IMG/VR virus record: IMGVR_UViG_3300046836_000468
Coordinates: 1-61,296 of that record
From: a virus
Strand: one strand, 5' to 3'
Length of the DNA: 61,296 bases
The position numbers were made by a program, and so were the translations under genes. This document shows, piece after piece, positions 28,235 to 59,567 of the stretch (positions within the stretch are counted from its first letter, which is position 1; each line of letters starts with the position of its first letter). Under the pieces are notes generated by a model, which saw only the letters and a list, made by a program, of their open reading frames with translations, was not told where the DNA came from and searched no databases.

Positions 28235-29514
28235 GACGCCTCCTCGGCGCGCTGCGCGCGCAGCACCTGCGCCTCGTACTCGAGCCGCAAGCGCTTGGTG
28301 GGCTCGAGGTCGCGCTCGAGGTCGCGCTCGACCTTGCGCAGCTGCTCAGCGAGCGTCGGTGGCGTCGACGGGAGCGCCATCGACCGAGGTCGGTAGACGG
28401 CCAGCAGCTCGCGCGCGGACAGCGGCGGCGGCGCCGGGGCAGGCTCGCCACGCGCTAGCTCGCAGACGTGCTCGACCGCCTGGTGCTCCGGGTCCTGTCG
28501 CTCGAGCTGGTCGATGTCTGCCCGCCGCTTGCGGCCGGCGCGGTGGGCGAGCTCGCGCAGCTTGGCAGCCTCGGCAAGCGCCCCGCGCTGCTCGGCCTCC
28601 TCGCGCAAGTCCTGCAGTCGGCGCATCGCCCCCCAGCCCGAGCCGTCGCTGCGCAGCGGCACGATGCGCCCCGCGGCGACCTCGCGCGTCGCCCAGCGGT
28701 GAAAGCCCCCGGGGTTTTGGACCTGCCCGCGCGGCTTGTTCACGAGCAGCACGACAGCCTCGAGCGCGGCGCGCGGGGCAGCTCGCGCCTCGTGCTCACG
28801 CAGGTTCGCGACGACGTCGCGCAGCCCATCGGGGCCGTGCTCGCGCGCCACGGCAGCCAGCAGCGCCGGGGGCGCCTCGACCGGGGGCAGCACCGGGCCG
28901 AGCTCGCCCGCGCCGCCAGCGGGTCGCAGGGCCAGCGCGGTTCCCGCTGCCGCAACCGGTTCCCGGAACCGCTTGGGAGGCCGAGAGGGCAAAGCAGGGG
29001 CAGCAGCAGCTGGCGCGTCCTCGCGCGCGCTCTGCTGCTCTCTCTCTTTCTTCTCTCTCTCACGTGAGTCTTCTCTAAGAGGGCGGACGCCCACGTCCAG
29101 GCGGACATCTGTGTGCGGATGTCCTACATCGCTCGTCGGCAGGCAGCAGACGTAGTCGTTCGAGCGCTGCAGCCCTGTGCTCTCGAACCACGAGCCCCAG
29201 CGTTCGAGCAGCCCGGCGTCGGAGAGCTCGGCGAGCACGCGACGCGCGTGGCGCTGGCCGACGCCCAGCTCCTCGCCGAGGGCCGCGACGGTGAAGAATG
29301 CGTGCGGGAAGCTCGGCAGCGAGGCGATGTAGCGCGCTGCGTGCCGCGCGTTGCGCGTCAGCCCAGCAGCCACAACTGCCAGCACCCAGGCGCGGCGGGC
29401 CGGGGGCAGCTTGCGCTCTGCGTCGCCTGCTCGAGCACCGCTCCCAACATGGGACGCGCTACTTCCTTGCGCGCGGCGGTCGTGGCTGATAGCTTCTGCG
29501 TGTCGTGACGGCAT
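28231..29514 (-). CDS. winged-helix replication initiator-like protein
   Basis: From the ATG preceded by GAGG the product is 427 aa. Residues ~40-130 contain helices and a winged helix (FFTVAALGEELGVGQRHARRVLAELSDAGLLERWG) typical of phage/plasmid replication proteins. Residues ~150-220 are a charged linker, and the rest is Ala/Arg/Glu-rich and helical. It reads away from the origin-like gap and the parA module, which fits a Rep protein. No catalytic rolling-circle motif is seen, so a helix-destabilising or helicase-loading initiator is more likely. A longer start (to 29643) is open. Confidence 0.5.
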   Translation of the reverse strand: MPSRHAEAISHDRRAQGSSASHVGSGARAGDAERKLPPARRAWVLAVVAAGLTRNARHAARYIASLPSFPHAFFTVAALGEELGVGQRHARRVLAELSDAGLLERWGSWFESTGLQRSNDYVCCLPTSDVGHPHTDVRLDVGVRPLREDSREREKKEREQQSAREDAPAAAAPALPSRPPKRFREPVAAAGTALALRPAGGAGELGPVLPPVEAPPALLAAVAREHGPDGLRDVVANLREHEARAAPRAALEAVVLLVNKPRGQVQNPGGFHRWATREVAAGRIVPLRSDGSGWGAMRRLQDLREEAEQRGALAEAAKLRELAHRAGRKRRADIDQLERQDPEHQAVEHVCELARGEPAPAPPPLSARELLAVYRPRSMALPSTPPTLAEQLRKVERDLERDLEPTKRLRLEYEAQVLRAQRAEEAS

Positions 29515-29912: not shown

Positions 29913-30695
29913 ATGATCATCGTGAGCGGCGGACAGAAGGGCGGCACGGGCAAGACGATGCTCGCGACCATGCTCGCGGTCCTGTTCAAATGGATGGGGC
30001 TCGACGTCCTGCTCGTCGACGCCGACCCGTCGCAGGGCTCGAGCAGCGAGTGGGCCAACGAGCGACGCGCAGCGCGCGAGGCCGCGCGCAAGATGGGGGT
30101 CGAGACGCCTATCCCGCACGTCCCGTGCGTGACGCTCGCCGGCATCGTCTACGACGAGCTGCGCGACCTCGAGCGACGCTACGACGTCATCGTCGTCGAC
30201 TGCGGCGGCGCCGAGAGCGAGGAGTTCACCTCGGCCTGCCTCGCAGCAGTCGCTGTTTACACGACCATCCTGCCGAGCGCGTGCGACCTCAAGACCATTC
30301 CCAAGGTCGAGAAGGCCATCAAGCTCTCGCGCGCGGGCGGCAATCGCGAGCTCGTTGCCAAGGTCATCCTCAACCAGTGCTCGAACAACCGGCATGCGAC
30401 CGACAAGCAACGCGCTCGCGAGAAGCTCGCGCAGTACCCGGCGCTCGTCGTCTCTGATCGCTCGATCAACTTCCGCGAGAGCTTCATGGACGCCTACGGA
30501 GAGTGGCTGTCCGTCAACGAGCTCGCCGTCCACGGCTCTAAAGAAGCGCGCAACAAAGCGCGCAAGGCAGCAGCCGAAGCCTGGGCAGTATTCGAGGAAG
30601 TCTGCGCCGACGTGGAGATCCCAGTACACGAGGTACTTGCTGTACCCGGTGTACACGCGGTACACGACGTACACGATGTACAGGAGGTACAGTGA
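29913..30695 (+). CDS. parA: ParA-type partition ATPase
   Basis: The 260-aa protein has the deviant Walker A QKGGTGKT with the signature lysine (residues 8-15), switch motif VLLVDADPSQGSSSEW (33-48) and Walker B YDVIVVDCGG (~90-99). No N-terminal HTH, so it is the small plasmid type, usually paired with an RHH centromere-binding protein. The last ~24 residues are an odd V-H-D-V-H repeat, encoded by the second GTAC array and probably dispensable for catalysis. Ribosome site GAGGGG overlaps the end of array 1. Confidence 0.88.
   Translation: MIIVSGGQKGGTGKTMLATMLAVLFKWMGLDVLLVDADPSQGSSSEWANERRAAREAARKMGVETPIPHVPCVTLAGIVYDELRDLERRYDVIVVDCGGAESEEFTSACLAAVAVYTTILPSACDLKTIPKVEKAIKLSRAGGNRELVAKVILNQCSNNRHATDKQRAREKLAQYPALVVSDRSINFRESFMDAYGEWLSVNELAVHGSKEARNKARKAAAEAWAVFEEVCADVEIPVHEVLAVPGVHAVHDVHDVQEVQ
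30624..30690 (+). repeat. 9-bp-phased GTAC array, copy 2, inside parA
   Basis: GTAC recurs at 30624, 30633, 30642, 30651, 30660, 30669, 30678 and 30687, eight copies at an exact 9-base step. The step equals three codons, so every GTA is read as Val and the parA C-terminus becomes a V..V..V.. tail. The final unit contains the AGGAGG ribosome site of the RHH gene. This looks like a DNA site that has been accommodated in a coding frame. Confidence 0.85.
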
Positions 30696-43749: not shown

Positions 43750-44780
43750 GGGACTATGCGCAGGTCAGGCCGACGCTGTGGACCGGCGAGACCGGGCGCC
43801 TACTGCGCGGCAACGCCAACGCGCAGCGCGTGCAGTTCTATCTGCTCACGTGCTCGAGCAGCAACATGGCGGGGCTGTTCTACCTGCCCCTTCCCCTGCT
43901 CTGCCACGACCTCGGGATGCCCTTGGAAGGGGCTCTCGAGGGGCTTCGGAGCCTTTCCGAGGTCGACTTCGCGGTCTACGACGAGCCGACTTCGTACGTC
44001 TGGGTGCTCAACGCAGCGCGCGAGAGCGTCGGGAGCAATCCGAGCCACGCCGACAACCGCGTGCTCGGCATCAGGCGGGAGCTCGAGCGCCACGCCAAGT
44101 GCCCGTTCTACGACGCGTTCGTCGAACGCTACGCAGCCCTGTTTGAGGACAGGCCCGCCCCGGTCGTGCAGGCCAAAACAAGAGCCCGTCCCAAGCCCCT
44201 TCAAAGGGGGTCACAAGGGAGTGCCAATTCAGGATCAGGATCAGGATCAGGATCAGGATCAGGATCAGGAGCAGAATTAAGAGAGAGCGCGGGCGCGCTC
44301 TCCCCGCATGCGCGCGCGCGCTTGACGGCTTCGCCTCCCGAGGAGAGCGAGACCCGGAGCCCAGACGAGACCGAGACCCTGACCGCGACGCAGCTGCGCG
44401 GGCTGTTCCGCTCGACCTGGATGCGCGCCGACCGCGCCGACCCGCCCATGCCTGCCGAGGACAAGCTCGCCGAGCTCGCCGAGCGCGTGACCGACACGGC
44501 GGCGCAGCGGCGCGTCGCGCCGGCCGAGCTGCTCACCACCACGCTCGAGCGCTGGGCGAAGGGCGAGCGCAATGCGCGCGAGCTGCGCGCCCCGGTGCAG
44601 TGCTTTGCGCAGGCGTTCGGCGAGGTGCTCGACCAGACCGAGGGCGGCGTGCCGCGCTTGTCGCCGACCGACGCGCTCTCACGCAAGGGCATGGAGGCGA
44701 TGCGTGCGGGCGACTTCGACCGCTACGACGCCATCCAGGCGGAGCTGCGCGCGCTCAACGGCGGAGGCTCGCATGCGTGA
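43746..44780 (+). CDS. phage replication protein (initiator/helicase-loader type)
   Basis: The 344-aa protein opens RDYAQVRPTLWTGETGRLLRG, with VQFYLLTCSSSNMAGLFYLPLPLLCHDLG and SEVDFAVYDEPTSYVWVLNAARE, the usual N-terminal domain of phage replisome-organiser proteins. A Gly-Ser hinge encoded by a GGATCA microsatellite (residues ~163-175) separates it from a C-terminal helical domain (TQLRGLFRSTWMRADRAD). It would bind the phage origin and load host helicase. Confidence 0.7.
   Translation: MRDYAQVRPTLWTGETGRLLRGNANAQRVQFYLLTCSSSNMAGLFYLPLPLLCHDLGMPLEGALEGLRSLSEVDFAVYDEPTSYVWVLNAARESVGSNPSHADNRVLGIRRELERHAKCPFYDAFVERYAALFEDRPAPVVQAKTRARPKPLQRGSQGSANSGSGSGSGSGSGSGAELRESAGALSPHARARLTASPPEESETRSPDETETLTATQLRGLFRSTWMRADRADPPMPAEDKLAELAERVTDTAAQRRVAPAELLTTTLERWAKGERNARELRAPVQCFAQAFGEVLDQTEGGVPRLSPTDALSRKGMEAMRAGDFDRYDAIQAELRALNGGGSHA
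44232..44267 (+). repeat. GGATCA hexanucleotide microsatellite, six copies
   Basis: Six perfect copies of GGATCA in the reading frame encode a Gly-Ser linker. The hexamer can change copy number by slippage without altering the frame, so linker length may vary among phage isolates. Each unit also contains GATC. Confidence 0.9.
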
Positions 44781-52243: not shown

Positions 52244-52479
52244 CAACCACGCATCTCATCTGGGCCCGCGAGCAGGCCGGCGTGTATCGCTCGCAGCGCC
52301 TCGACGGCGAGCGCGTGTCCTACCGCATCAGGCGCAACGGCCGGCGCTGGTGGGACGTGCAGCGCATGCGCCTGCGCAGCAAGGGGCGCGTGACGGTCGA
52401 GCACGTCGCCGAGGCGCCGTCGCTCGCGTATGCGCGCTTCATGGCTGGATGCGACCTCGTGAGCGGAGCTAGACCATGA
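52240..52479 (+). CDS. small basic hypothetical protein
   Basis: The 79-aa product is Arg-rich and beta-like (YRSQRLDGERVSYRIRRNGRRWWDVQRMRL). Probably nucleic-acid-binding. Overlaps both neighbours. Family unknown. Confidence 0.5.
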   Translation: MTTTHLIWAREQAGVYRSQRLDGERVSYRIRRNGRRWWDVQRMRLRSKGRVTVEHVAEAPSLAYARFMAGCDLVSGARP

Positions 52480-52982
52480 CGATGACCGACACCGTAGACG
52501 CAGACTTCGACCAGCTCGACCACGCGCTGCTCAGCGGGCAGCTCACCACCGACCGGCTCGCCGCGCTGCAGCCGCGCACGCAGTGGACGCGCATCGAGAC
52601 GCACCCCGAGATACTCGCGCAGCCGTACGTCGTCGCGCTCGGCACGTACCTCGAGCCGCGCAAGGACGGCCTACGCGTCATCGTCACGCTCGACCTGGCG
52701 TCCGACGTGGGCGCGGGCGACTGGCTGCACCTGAGCGTCTCGCGCGAGCGCAGGCTGCCGACCTGGGGCGACCTCGTCTCGACGCGCGACATGCTCGGCT
52801 ACGAGGAGCTGTACTTTCTGCAGCAGCTGCCGCCGCGCAGGTACTGGCTCAACGTGCACCCGTACTGCCTGCACCTCTTGCACAGGCTCGACCAGGACGC
52901 TGTGCCGCGTCTGCTCTGGGAGGGGCAGGAGGGCGGCGACGGATCGAACTACCAGCACAGCAAAACAAGGACAAGGCCATGA
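52476..52982 (+). CDS. DUF7694-like conserved phage protein
   Basis: The 168-aa product has GDWLHLSVSRERRLPTWGDLV, YEELYFLQQLPPRRYWLNVHPYCLHLLH, the conserved blocks of a common phage protein of unknown function with several His/Tyr residues. It overlaps the RAMP-like gene start, so it could belong to the same transcript. Two ATGs at the start are possible. Confidence 0.65.
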   Translation: MTMTDTVDADFDQLDHALLSGQLTTDRLAALQPRTQWTRIETHPEILAQPYVVALGTYLEPRKDGLRVIVTLDLASDVGAGDWLHLSVSRERRLPTWGDLVSTRDMLGYEELYFLQQLPPRRYWLNVHPYCLHLLHRLDQDAVPRLLWEGQEGGDGSNYQHSKTRTRP

Positions 52983-53542
52983 AGACATACCGAGCAAAGA
53001 TCAAGAGCAAGTCGCCCTACTCTCAGTCTCGTTATCACCAGACCGAGCACCTCGACAAAGAGGGCGACGACGCCTACGAGCGACGAACGTGGCGCGAGCG
53101 CATGCACTACGACGAGAACGGCGAGGTGTTCATCCCGCCGATGAGCCTGAAGAACTGCCTGGCTGAGGCCGCGAAGTTTCTGAGCGTGTCGATCAAGGGC
53201 AAGGGCAAGGCGACGTACACGAAGCACTTCGAGGCTGGCATCATGGTGACGACACCGATCAGCCTCGGCATCAAGGTGCAAGACGTGCCAGTCGAGGCGC
53301 TGTTTGTGCCGAGTAACGGCAGGCGCGGAGGAAGCACTCGCGTCACCCGGTACTTCGGACGCATCCCCAAGTGGTCGGGCGAGTTCGAAATCAACGTGCT
53401 CGACGAGACCATCACCAAGGACGTTCTCGAGCTGCACCTGTGCGAGGCCGGCAGCTTGATCGGCATCGGGCGCTTTCGCCCGCGCAACAACGGCTACTAC
53501 GGTCGCTTCGCTGTCGAGTCGCTAGAGGAGGTGGTGTCATGA
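52979..53542 (+). CDS. RAMP/Cas7-like protein
   Basis: The 187-aa protein begins with a beta strand and a long loop, then IPPMSLKNCLAEAAKFLS (52-69), resembling the IPGSSLKGALR helix of RAMP (Cas7/Csm3/Csf2) proteins. It also has the basic KGKGKATYTKH (73-83), a NGRRGG loop (113-118), and a beta-alpha-beta end closing in the Gly/Arg-rich IGIGRFRPRNNGYYGRF (161-177), like a RAMP G-loop. Reading is by motif style; I know the family as a widespread unnamed phage protein. GC is lower than flanking structural genes. It is followed by a small partner gene and pentamer arrays. Confidence 0.55.
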   Translation: MKTYRAKIKSKSPYSQSRYHQTEHLDKEGDDAYERRTWRERMHYDENGEVFIPPMSLKNCLAEAAKFLSVSIKGKGKATYTKHFEAGIMVTTPISLGIKVQDVPVEALFVPSNGRRGGSTRVTRYFGRIPKWSGEFEINVLDETITKDVLELHLCEAGSLIGIGRFRPRNNGYYGRFAVESLEEVVS

Positions 53543-54051
53543 GCGGGAGCTCTGCCGCACGACGCGTGGCGCTGCTGTCCGAGCCGACTCAGAAGGTGCT
53601 GGAGCGCATGCGGACAGCTGCGGTCGGAGACATGGTGCCATGGGAAGAACTCGAGGCGATCACCGGTCGACCACGTGACGCTGTGCGAGACATGGCGCGC
53701 ACAGCGTCGAAGCGGCTGCAGAACGACGAGAAGATGCACTTCCGCACCTGCATAGCGGTAGGCGTAGAGCGCATCCCATTCACGACTGTCGCGCGCGAGG
53801 AGCTGCCTACGCAGCGTAAGCGCATCGGCGCAGCAGCAGGCCGTATGTTGCGCACAACGGAGAACGTCATCCTCGATGGCATGAGTCGAGACGACTGCGA
53901 CCAGGTATTGCTCCACCAAGCGATTGCTGGTGTGACGCAGATAGCGTGCTCGAACGAGGGGCTCAGACGCCTACGCGCAAGCACTAGCGCTCTCGCGACA
54001 GTCCCACCGTTCTCTCCGAGAGAAGCCGCAGAGATGCTCTTCTCTGAGTGA
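53539..54051 (+). CDS. helical partner of the RAMP-like protein (HTH-like)
   Basis: The ATG overlaps the RAMP-like stop; 170 aa. Residues ~25-75 look like a winged or plain HTH (GDMVPWEELEAITGRPRDAVRDMARTASKRLQ) followed by beta residues and a helical C-terminus (FSPREAAEMLFSE). The coupling to the RAMP-like gene implies one function. It could bind RNA or DNA of the downstream arrays. Family not named; lower GC like its partner. Confidence 0.55.
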   Translation: MSGSSAARRVALLSEPTQKVLERMRTAAVGDMVPWEELEAITGRPRDAVRDMARTASKRLQNDEKMHFRTCIAVGVERIPFTTVAREELPTQRKRIGAAAGRMLRTTENVILDGMSRDDCDQVLLHQAIAGVTQIACSNEGLRRLRASTSALATVPPFSPREAAEMLFSE

Positions 54052-54060
54052 GCGCAGCAT

Positions 54061-54100
54061 GGATTGACTCGGTTTGGCTGGGCAGGGCAGGACGTGGACG
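54061..54100 (+). repeat. pentamer array 1, 8 units (GRNNN)
   Basis: Eight consecutive pentamers begin with G then a purine: GGATT, GACTC, GGTTT, GGCTG and so on. An 11-base interruption (CAGCATCGCTT) follows, after which the phase resumes shifted by one base in array 2. The last three positions of each unit vary. Confidence 0.68.
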
Positions 54101-54111
54101 CAGCATCGCTT

Positions 54112-54161
54112 GGCGTGGCTAGGCTCGACTCGGCAGGGCAAGACAAGACAAGGGCAGTACC
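54112..54161 (+). repeat. pentamer array 2, 8 units (GRCNN) plus 3' motif
   Basis: Eight exact GRCNN pentamers from 54112 (GGCGT, GGCTA, GGCTC, GACTC ...) end in GGGCAGTACC. Its 3' 24 bases (54138-54161) recur at 54268-54291 with one mismatch. Only the last two positions of each unit are free. Confidence 0.85.
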
Positions 54162-54173
54162 CAAAAGTTTTCG

Positions 54174-54187
54174 CGCTCGCGCGAGCG
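54174..54187 (+). repeat. perfect 14-bp palindrome between arrays
   Basis: CGCTCGC is followed directly by its complement GCGAGCG, preceded by AAAAGTTTTCG. As RNA it would fold to a GC hairpin between arrays 2 and 3. It could separate, process or terminate array transcripts. No experimental role is known. Confidence 0.6.
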
Positions 54188-54200
54188 GGTGTGTTTCGGT

Positions 54201-54291
54201 GACAGGGCAACTCAGGGGCATTGCAAGACGGGACGCGGCATGGCGGGACTCAGCAACGCCGGGCTCAGCAAGACAAGGCAAGGGCAGTACC
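54201..54291 (+). repeat. pentamer array 3, 13 phased units plus 3' motif
   Basis: After GACAG GGCAA and a one-base slip, 13 successive units from 54217 have a purine at position 2 and C at position 3 without exception (GGCAT, TGCAA, GACGG, GACGC ...). The array finishes in GGGCAGTACC, the same end as array 2. The strict phase over 65 bases cannot come from coding, because 5 is not a multiple of 3. Confidence 0.85.
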
Positions 54292-54322
54292 TAAGCAGCG
54301 AGCAGGCTCGGGAGGGCAGACC

Positions 54323-54577
54323 ATGACTGACGACACAGCAGACAACCTCGCGGCCGCGCACGCGCAAGGCGCCGACGTCATCCGCGCCGTCAACGGGTGG
54401 TGCTTCGAGCGCGGCATGTACGTCGTCGCGATCGGGCGCGTCGCCCACCACGACCGCTACCACTGCCGCGTGCAGCCCGCGTACGGCGCCGACGTGCTGT
54501 GCGTCGAGAGCGACACGCTGTCCGGTCTGCTCGAGCGGCTGAACAGGTGGCACACGACCGGCAAGCCCGATGGCTGA
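54323..54577 (+). CDS. small hypothetical protein
   Basis: ATG with GGAGGG upstream; 84 aa. It contains ADVIRAVNGWCFERGMYVVAIGRVAHHDRYHC in two blocks, alpha/beta, not recognised. It restarts the structural operon after the array gap. Overlaps the next start. Confidence 0.57.
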   Translation: MTDDTADNLAAAHAQGADVIRAVNGWCFERGMYVVAIGRVAHHDRYHCRVQPAYGADVLCVESDTLSGLLERLNRWHTTGKPDG

Positions 54578-54782
54578 CCGCGAGCACGATGGCCGCGTGA
54601 CCATCACGGCGAAGCACGAGGGTCCGGCCCAGGCAGACACGATGGTTTTCCTGGCTGGGCAAGAGCAGTCGTTTCACTGCTCTTGCGGCTGCAACGTGTT
54701 CAAGCGCGTGAAGCCGCACGAGCTCCGGTACCGCTGCAACTCATGCAGGGCTGTCTACGAGGGGACTGCACGCCATGGCTGA
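54570..54782 (+). CDS. small zinc-ribbon protein
   Basis: The 70-aa product has FHCSCGCNVFKRVKPHEL and YRCNSCRAVYEG, a classic four-cysteine zinc ribbon. It overlaps its neighbours. Position just before the head morphogenesis gene is shared by many phage genomes; role unknown. Confidence 0.6.
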   Translation: MADREHDGRVTITAKHEGPAQADTMVFLAGQEQSFHCSCGCNVFKRVKPHELRYRCNSCRAVYEGTARHG

Positions 54783-58676: not shown

Positions 58677-59567
58677 ATGGGACTAGCGCTAGACGACGTG
58701 CCGTATGAGCCGGCGACCGAGTACACCGATCGCTGGGTGTTCGCGCTCAGCGACACGCTCGAGGGCGAGCACGGCGGCACGTTCTTCGAGGCAGGCGTAG
58801 CGACGCGCCCGGTCGACGTGCGCGGCCTGCGCAAGTTCATCTGCGCGCACATCGTGCTCGGCGCGCTGCGCGTCGAGGGCGCGCCGCTCGAGCTCGGCGA
58901 CACCAGCAAGCTCGTGGGCGATGGCGGCGAGGAGGGCGAGGGCGAGGGCGAGGGCGAGACCGACCCGAACGCGCCCACGGGCGGCACGCTGCCCGCCATC
59001 CCTGGCATCGACAACGCGCTGCCGGGGGAACAGCCCGGCATCGACAACACGCTGCCGCCCGAAGTGCCGCCCATCGGCACGACGCTGCCGACGCGCCCTG
59101 GCGTCGACAACGAGCTGCCAGGCGAGCAGCCCGGCATCGACAACGAGCTCCCGCCTGAGCGTCCGCCCATCGGCGCGACGCTGCCCGAGGGGCCCGGTCC
59201 TGACAACACGCTGCCCAGGCCAGAGCTGCCTGACGAGCTGCCGCCTGTCGGCGTGACGCTGCCTGAGCGCCCCGAGGGCGGCACGCTGCCGTCCATTCCC
59301 GAGGCTGGGCAGGAGCTGCCCGACCCCGAGCCCATCCCGGACAACGAGCTGCCAGGCGAGCGCCCGCCCGTAGGCGCGACGCTGCCGACGCGCCCCGGCA
59401 TCGACAACGAGCTGCCGCCCGAGCCCGATCCTGCGCCCGAGCTCGAGCGCCTGCGCGAGCAGGAGCGCGCCCGCGAGCGCGAGCGTCGGCGCGAGCACGA
59501 GAAGCCCGTCCCGCCGCCCCACACGCCCAGCTGGAGCGAGAAGCTCAAGGGCAAGAAGGGCAAGTGA
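58677..59567 (+). CDS. head/decoration protein with proline-rich repeat tail
   Basis: The 296-aa product has an ~85-residue N-terminal domain (VPYEPATEYTDRWVFALSDTLEGEHGGTFFE in parts), an EGEGEGEG acidic hinge, then 5-6 repeats like the gene at the junction: IGTTLPTRPGVDNELPGEQP and IGATLPEGPGPDNTLP. It ends Arg/Lys-rich (RERERRREHEKP). The repeats differ in number from the junction gene. A decoration protein is guessed from its position after the major capsid gene. Confidence 0.65.
   Translation: MGLALDDVPYEPATEYTDRWVFALSDTLEGEHGGTFFEAGVATRPVDVRGLRKFICAHIVLGALRVEGAPLELGDTSKLVGDGGEEGEGEGEGETDPNAPTGGTLPAIPGIDNALPGEQPGIDNTLPPEVPPIGTTLPTRPGVDNELPGEQPGIDNELPPERPPIGATLPEGPGPDNTLPRPELPDELPPVGVTLPERPEGGTLPSIPEAGQELPDPEPIPDNELPGERPPVGATLPTRPGIDNELPPEPDPAPELERLREQERARERERRREHEKPVPPPHTPSWSEKLKGKKGK

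Follow-up and report, generated by a model that had tools for sequence, protein, structure and literature searches.

The closest described counterpart of the locus analysed here is VIPR (Viral Interference Programmable Repeat), presented in a preprint (PMC13142463; bioRxiv 2026.04.26.720920, version 2) that is the only paper on VIPR among those listed for the PMC literature. As outlined there, a VIPR system combines a phage-encoded RAMP with a vap gene and with vrRNAs; these consist of 9–16 YNNGG repeats, GGY and NN alternating, and end in a constant tail (PMC13142463). The NN letters are reported to read double-stranded DNA with one base skipped per unit, often at the codon wobble position, and binding represses transcription; competing phages as well as satellites are named as targets, and other VIPR systems are targeted by some guides (PMC13142463). 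The preprint distinguishes seven types, all with GGY/NN “or a related consensus,” gives the tail structure of the SUSP1 clade as a pseudoknot, and treats the G-loop as a defining RAMP feature (PMC13142463). Class 1 CRISPR has been proposed to descend from VIPR.

We analysed a stretch of viral DNA of 61,296 nucleotides (IMG/VR record IMGVR_UViG_3300046836_000468), hereafter the window, and consider it very probable that it carries a VIPR system in the head operon of a tailed phage, with the 187-amino-acid product of the gene at 52979–53542 (+) as its effector, Vipr. Judged by its sequence, the locus is a member of the kind described in 2026, belonging to a divergent clade. Among the known systems, the type II VIPR of phage SUSP1 and the Pseudomonas fulva prophage (PMC13142463; PDB 36pp) comes closest and shares with the window a homologous Vipr, a homologous neighbour gene, encoding by a phage, 5-nt NN/triplet guides, a constant tail and guides flanking the gene. 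It differs in that the window triplet is GGC/GAC-like and not GGY, the tail sequence is another one, the window guides lie downstream only, and Vipr identity is low outside the C-terminal half. If the reported experiments (PMC13142463) carry over, Vipr subunits would assemble on each vrRNA, the protein would hold the triplet of each unit, and double-stranded DNA would be read by the NN pairs of all units, each unit passing over one target base; the gene on the bound DNA would then be repressed.

The vipr open reading frame runs from ATG to TGA, and its translation includes both IPPMSLKNCL and the C-terminal G-loop IGIGRFRPRNNGYYGRF. The relatives considered include 41 viral loci (L001–L041, several of them near-duplicates) and six loci in bacterial genome assemblies. 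We regard the frame as a real gene because relatives are encoded in all 41 viral loci and because 28 columns of the alignment are invariant, many of them within the C-terminal loop; the 29 aligned relatives are 48–80% identical to the window Vipr. Among PDB chains, phmmer matched 36pp_D alone, the “SUSP1 Vipr protein” (E = 2.5e-6), over residues 101–184, and this confinement of the identity to the C-terminal half counts against the VIPR reading. A profile of 30 sequences (the window and the 29 relatives) reached 36pp_D at 1e-9, with the runner-up at 0.36. A protein of phage LNA6 is nearly identical to 36pp_D (E = 2.2e-123), and hhalign of the window Vipr family against this LNA6 protein gave 97.6% (E = 2.8e-12). 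Furthermore, phrog_4652, a family of unknown function in PHROGs, takes the window Vipr (E = 8.4e-16) together with proteins of three phages, namely LNA6, Pseudomonas phage LESphi2 and Gordonia phage ODay. Pfam, NCBIfam and PADLOC gave no match to the window Vipr protein.

The AlphaFold2 model of Vipr, built from the window and locus sequences, has a pLDDT of 92.1 and a pTM of 0.84. Foldseek matched it to 107 PDB chains at E ≤ 0.001, of which the best 50 are all CRISPR RAMP subunits or effector complexes; the matches listed are headed by type VII and type III-A, and 36pp is not among them, the fold library running to April 2026. In BFVD, the second match (A0A8S5R426, E = 2.4e-8) is a phage protein of the same fold, from Siphoviridae sp. 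ctcMb1, labelled “Cas system-associated RAMP superfamily protein”; neither this label nor that of phrog_4652 refers to guides or VIPR. VIA-align superimposed the model on 6ifk_E of a Csm complex over 157 residues (Z = 11.4, rmsd 3.4 Å). RAMPs carry a G-loop between the last helix and the last strand. In the model, the last long helix (H147–161) is followed by the Gly/Arg loop and then by the last strand (E177–184), and the IPPMSLKNCL segment leads into helix H54–68. By fold search and sequence, Vipr is a RAMP with a single RRM core and a G-loop. The fold is RAMP/RRM and not one unrelated to ferredoxin/RRM, and the original prediction of a RAMP-like protein, with the IPPMSLKNCL helix and the closing loop laid out as RAMP motifs, was correct. 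The likeness to Csm3 and Cas7 (type III-A and type VII) covers the whole chain, with the RRM/RAMP fold at a Z of about 11 and the G-loop between last helix and last strand, whereas no sequence match to them is detectable, no cas gene or CRISPR array was seen near vipr, and the guides are gapped and are not spacers.

The genes around vipr form a phage head operon comprising the small and large terminase subunits, portal, head morphogenesis, scaffold and major head proteins. PADLOC assigned no family to the vipr product or to 10 neighbouring open reading frames, and neither of two repeat scans returned a CRISPR-like array. A location in a structural operon, with neither Cas gene nor CRISPR nearby, had also been predicted, and both points hold. 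No sigma-70-like promoter was found in 52400–54600, and a terminator-like site is located at the vrRNA1 tail. Rfam gave no match in the 50–57 kb region of the window and only a tRNA in 11 relatives; therefore, no hammerhead ribozyme was seen in that region or in those relatives.

Directly 3′ of vipr lies ORF2 (53539–54051, +), which encodes a 170-amino-acid vap1-like partner and whose start overlaps the vipr stop (ATGA). Members of its family occur next to vipr in 43 of the 51 sources; in LNA6, the partner gene follows vipr at a distance of 15 bp. Comparison of the ORF2 family with the LNA6/LESphi2 pair by hhalign gave 94.2% (E = 1.2e-7), which makes ORF2 homologous to the vap adjoining the SUSP1-like vipr. 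The ORF2 model (pLDDT 90.5) resembles winged-helix regulators among others, with no Foldseek match better than E = 0.03, and we infer from the model that ORF2 may bind DNA.

Two guide tracts follow ORF2 on the same strand. The vrRNA1 tract (54052–54153, +) contains about 16 variable 5-nt units, each an NN pair plus a GGC/GAC-like triplet, followed by AA units, and vrRNA2 (54217–54283, +) contains 10–11 variable units (AT AA GG GC AT GG TC AA CG TC), again followed by AA units. Their tract scores, 29.2 and 23.1, are the two best in the window on both strands and the only ones above 13.5, the third being 10.6; the top score in 100 dinucleotide shuffles of the window, both strands included, was 16.8. 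Across the window and its nearest relative, L039, the entropy of the NN positions is 1.74–1.97 bits and that of the triplet positions 0.5–1.27 bits. The window triplets are not strictly GGY, many units having GAC, AGC or CGC, and one unit of vrRNA1, at 54094–54099, has six nucleotides, which could break the code; both points count against the VIPR reading.

The vrRNA1 tail (54150–54193, +) begins with the 12 bases AAGGGCAGTACC and continues into a GC-rich hairpin (54172–54180 with 54185–54193), predicted by folding and common to the tails of L039 and L001. The vrRNA2 tail starts with an exact copy of the same 12 bases (54280–54291, +); these and 54150–54161 are their only exact occurrences in the window, and they are retained in L001 and L039. 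The hairpin is 90% paired over six tails, with a covariation that was equalled in 79 of 500 shuffles and so lies within the shuffled range. Tandem Repeats Finder at its default threshold reported neither window array; standard annotation may therefore miss other loci. Elsewhere in the window, a period-5 CGC site at 28600–28700 has a consensus-free score of 3.74, as high as those of the guide tracts; it was rejected as a guide tract by eye, and no tail was seen there.

Identity between the window and L039 is 95.3% over the 3′ end of vipr plus ORF2, and 83–91% over pieces beyond ORF2. The L039 array contains three guides, whose NN letters agree with those of the window at between 1 of 12 and 8 of 20 positions, while the tails are kept. 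Such a pattern is what guide turnover would be expected to leave. Just 5′ of the vipr start, at 52951–52977, the sequence reads ccAGC acAGC aaAAC aaGGAC aaGG. It resembles the end of an upstream guide tract such as those in L010 and L019, or may be merely a ribosome-binding stretch.

Among the relatives, a scanner for GGC-type tracts found them in 31 of the 41 viral loci, never more than 3 kb from vipr. When a consensus-free scanner was applied, requiring three conserved and two variable columns, the best period-5 site lay beside vipr in 40 of the 41 loci, the exception being L027, whose sequence begins at the gene start. The tracts have the same placement beside vipr in the six bacterial-assembly loci. 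The window locus and its relatives make up a large environmental clade with readable guides. Three phage records, OQ594955 (P21_9/P21_8), MW534375 (gene 19) and OM630585, contain vipr-family genes that are unannotated or given as “hypothetical protein,” with unannotated period-5 tracts nearby.

The guides of the window were searched against one collection of viral contigs (viral_contigs). Exact scans with 20 and 18 letters gave no match, and one with 16 letters gave three chance matches with no long in-register frame and no extension. With 14 letters there were at least 120 matches, the best of which extended by 14 of 24 further letters. An exact scan of the same collection with guide 1 of L039 (nine units) likewise returned no match. 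That no target was found for the window guides counts against the VIPR reading. A decaying locus, whose guides have lost their targets and whose Vipr is kept as a mere passenger or for some side function, would agree with the failure to find a target for either window guide, with the 6-nt unit in vrRNA1 and with the several off-consensus triplets. Nevertheless, we consider decay unlikely. Neither vipr nor ORF2 is disrupted and both are well conserved, the tails are exact, off-consensus triplets are frequent in the relatives as well, and the target scans covered exact matches in a single collection.

Apparent targets were found for two guides of the clade. A total of 169 guide strings, cut automatically and including some tail runs and guides of near-duplicate loci, were scored against both strands of all loci (1.16 Mb). 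The best score was 15 with no base skipped, 15 with two and 16.5 with four, whereas a skip of one gave 22, 21.5 and 21; a skip of three recovers the tracts themselves. The three outliers belong to one guide of L028 and fall on the codons for RPRNNGYYGRF in the vipr genes of L008 (11 of 11 units), L002 and L014, with the wobble position as the skipped base. Ten sets of unit-shuffled guides scored at most 17 against the vipr genes. In an exact scan of viral_contigs, the L028 guide matched L008 only. Against the vipr of its own locus it matches 19 of 22 letters, with mismatches at all three Arg codons, and against the window vipr 20 of 22. The differing Arg codons in the L028 vipr would possibly be self-avoidance by synonymous recoding. 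This observation concerns 8589–9096 of L028, and the same system occurs in a Rhodospirillales assembly (L052).

The second guide is number 4 of L001, the closest full-length relative (Vipr 80% identical). An 18-letter pattern of this guide matched three viral contigs in viral_contigs, and all three sites are antisense, in codon register, and located at VVLRGTGPMLNP of homologous proteins, where two more units are exact, bringing the match to 11 of 12 units. The three contigs, L175, L176 and L177, thus carry a terminase-like family with this motif as the apparent target. The label comes from a weak match to a protein annotated “similar to terminase” (24.7%, E = 6e-7) and from what we take to be ATPase-like motifs; PHROG and Pfam gave no match to the target protein. 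No vipr was found on L175–L177, all of which are fragments. Since the three matches are homologues, they count as one event, and the apparent targets of the clade amount to two events, each obtained after many comparisons, which limits their weight for the VIPR reading. Besides these two guides, the exact scans with at least 16 letters covered two 18-letter patterns and one 20-letter pattern, all without a match, and one 16-letter pattern with three chance matches. When 12 guide strings of the clade were compared with the window, L001, L039 and the three target contigs, guide 4 of L001 alone stood out. A match of an L010 guide antisense to vipr (score 14.5) was dropped as within the range of shuffled guides, and one of guide 1 of L001 (score 16) as within controls.

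The guides also resemble coding sequence in register. With a codon-dinucleotide model derived from the same loci, codon positions 1–2 fitted best in 115 of the 169 guides, 2–3 in 38 and 3–1 in 16, and when the second letters were shuffled within guides the 1–2 fit fell by 7.2 sd and the others by 3.75 and 2.7, all figures being inflated by the near-duplicate loci. The clade provides independent support for the one-base-skip, wobble-aligned code and two apparent natural targets on rival viruses. The VIPR system of the window would likely be used against competing phages, because an L001 guide matches a terminase-like gene on three contigs and the L028 guide matches the G-loop codons of rival vipr genes. 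That the guides act on the phage's own genes or on host genes, and not on those of rivals, is quite unlikely in our view. No rival target was found for the window guides and the locus sits inside a phage head operon, as such control would have it, but scanning the window with its own guides gave nothing above background, the clade targets lie on other viruses, and the terminase-like gene was not found in the window or on the L001 contig.

The RAMP fold, the lack of nearby cas genes and the position in a head operon would also suit a stand-alone RNA-binding protein serving head assembly or RNA regulation, with the period-5 tracts as unrelated low-complexity DNA. We consider this very improbable, as the tracts adjoin the gene in 40 of 41 loci with none elsewhere above threshold, their triplets are lineage-specific, targets follow the skip rule, and a Vipr relative has been solved. 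The original prediction went further and proposed, if confirmed, a solitary phage RAMP family. The protein is neither solitary nor the first of a new family: it has the partner gene ORF2, with a guide-RNA array directly 3′ of the gene pair, and is a member of the known Vipr family (PMC13142463). A solitary family was rejected on the ground that in nearly all relatives, too, vipr has guide tracts and a partner gene next to it. Hardly credible, finally, is a remnant of a class 1 CRISPR effector, a captured Cas7 or Csm3 working on host crRNAs, for which the closest PDB-library folds among the matches listed (Csm3 and type VII Cas7) would speak, and which was rejected given that the sequence groups with Vipr and not with Cas proteins, that there is no cas gene among the open reading frames tested near vipr and no CRISPR-like repeat, and that the locus has a guide array of its own.

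Under the VIPR reading, the triplet would be the constant part of each guide, and it varies between lineages. Among L001–L041 and L049–L054, the versions GGC, GGT, GAC, GTC, GTT, AGT, AAT, CGC, CTC and CAC occur. A quick tree of 39 Viprs, made without L039, L027 and identical proteins and with three outgroup rows on long branches, requires at least 17 triplet changes, outgroups included. Triplets contain more G or C where the locus has a higher GC content (Spearman 0.82, 38 loci, uncorrected for kinship), and their third base is never a purine, with C in 29 loci and T in the other 9. On this basis we tentatively propose, with slightly less than even chances of being right, a reading in several parts. 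The triplet would be unfixed within one Vipr clade, with at least 10 versions and at least 17 switches, following GC content while keeping a third-position pyrimidine; Vipr would hold the guide by spacing and the pyrimidine, not by GG; the triplet may be a lineage dialect that separates rival systems; and guides would aim at the most codon-conserved motifs of rivals (the terminase-like VVLRGTGPMLN and the Vipr G-loop), the attacker's own G-loop differing from its guide at all three Arg codons. The variation may be new, or perhaps partly known, fig. S17 of the preprint mentioning a related consensus (PMC13142463). With the triplet variants, it can be tested what the protein actually recognises in its guide.

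Other repeats were observed in the window. Near both of its ends, at 245–754 and 58921–59501, tandem repeats encode DNELP..PIG..LPEGP-like units. A TCAGGA hexamer is repeated 7.7 times at 44229–44274 with 97% matches, and a GTACACGAG-type repeat is located at 30624–30691.
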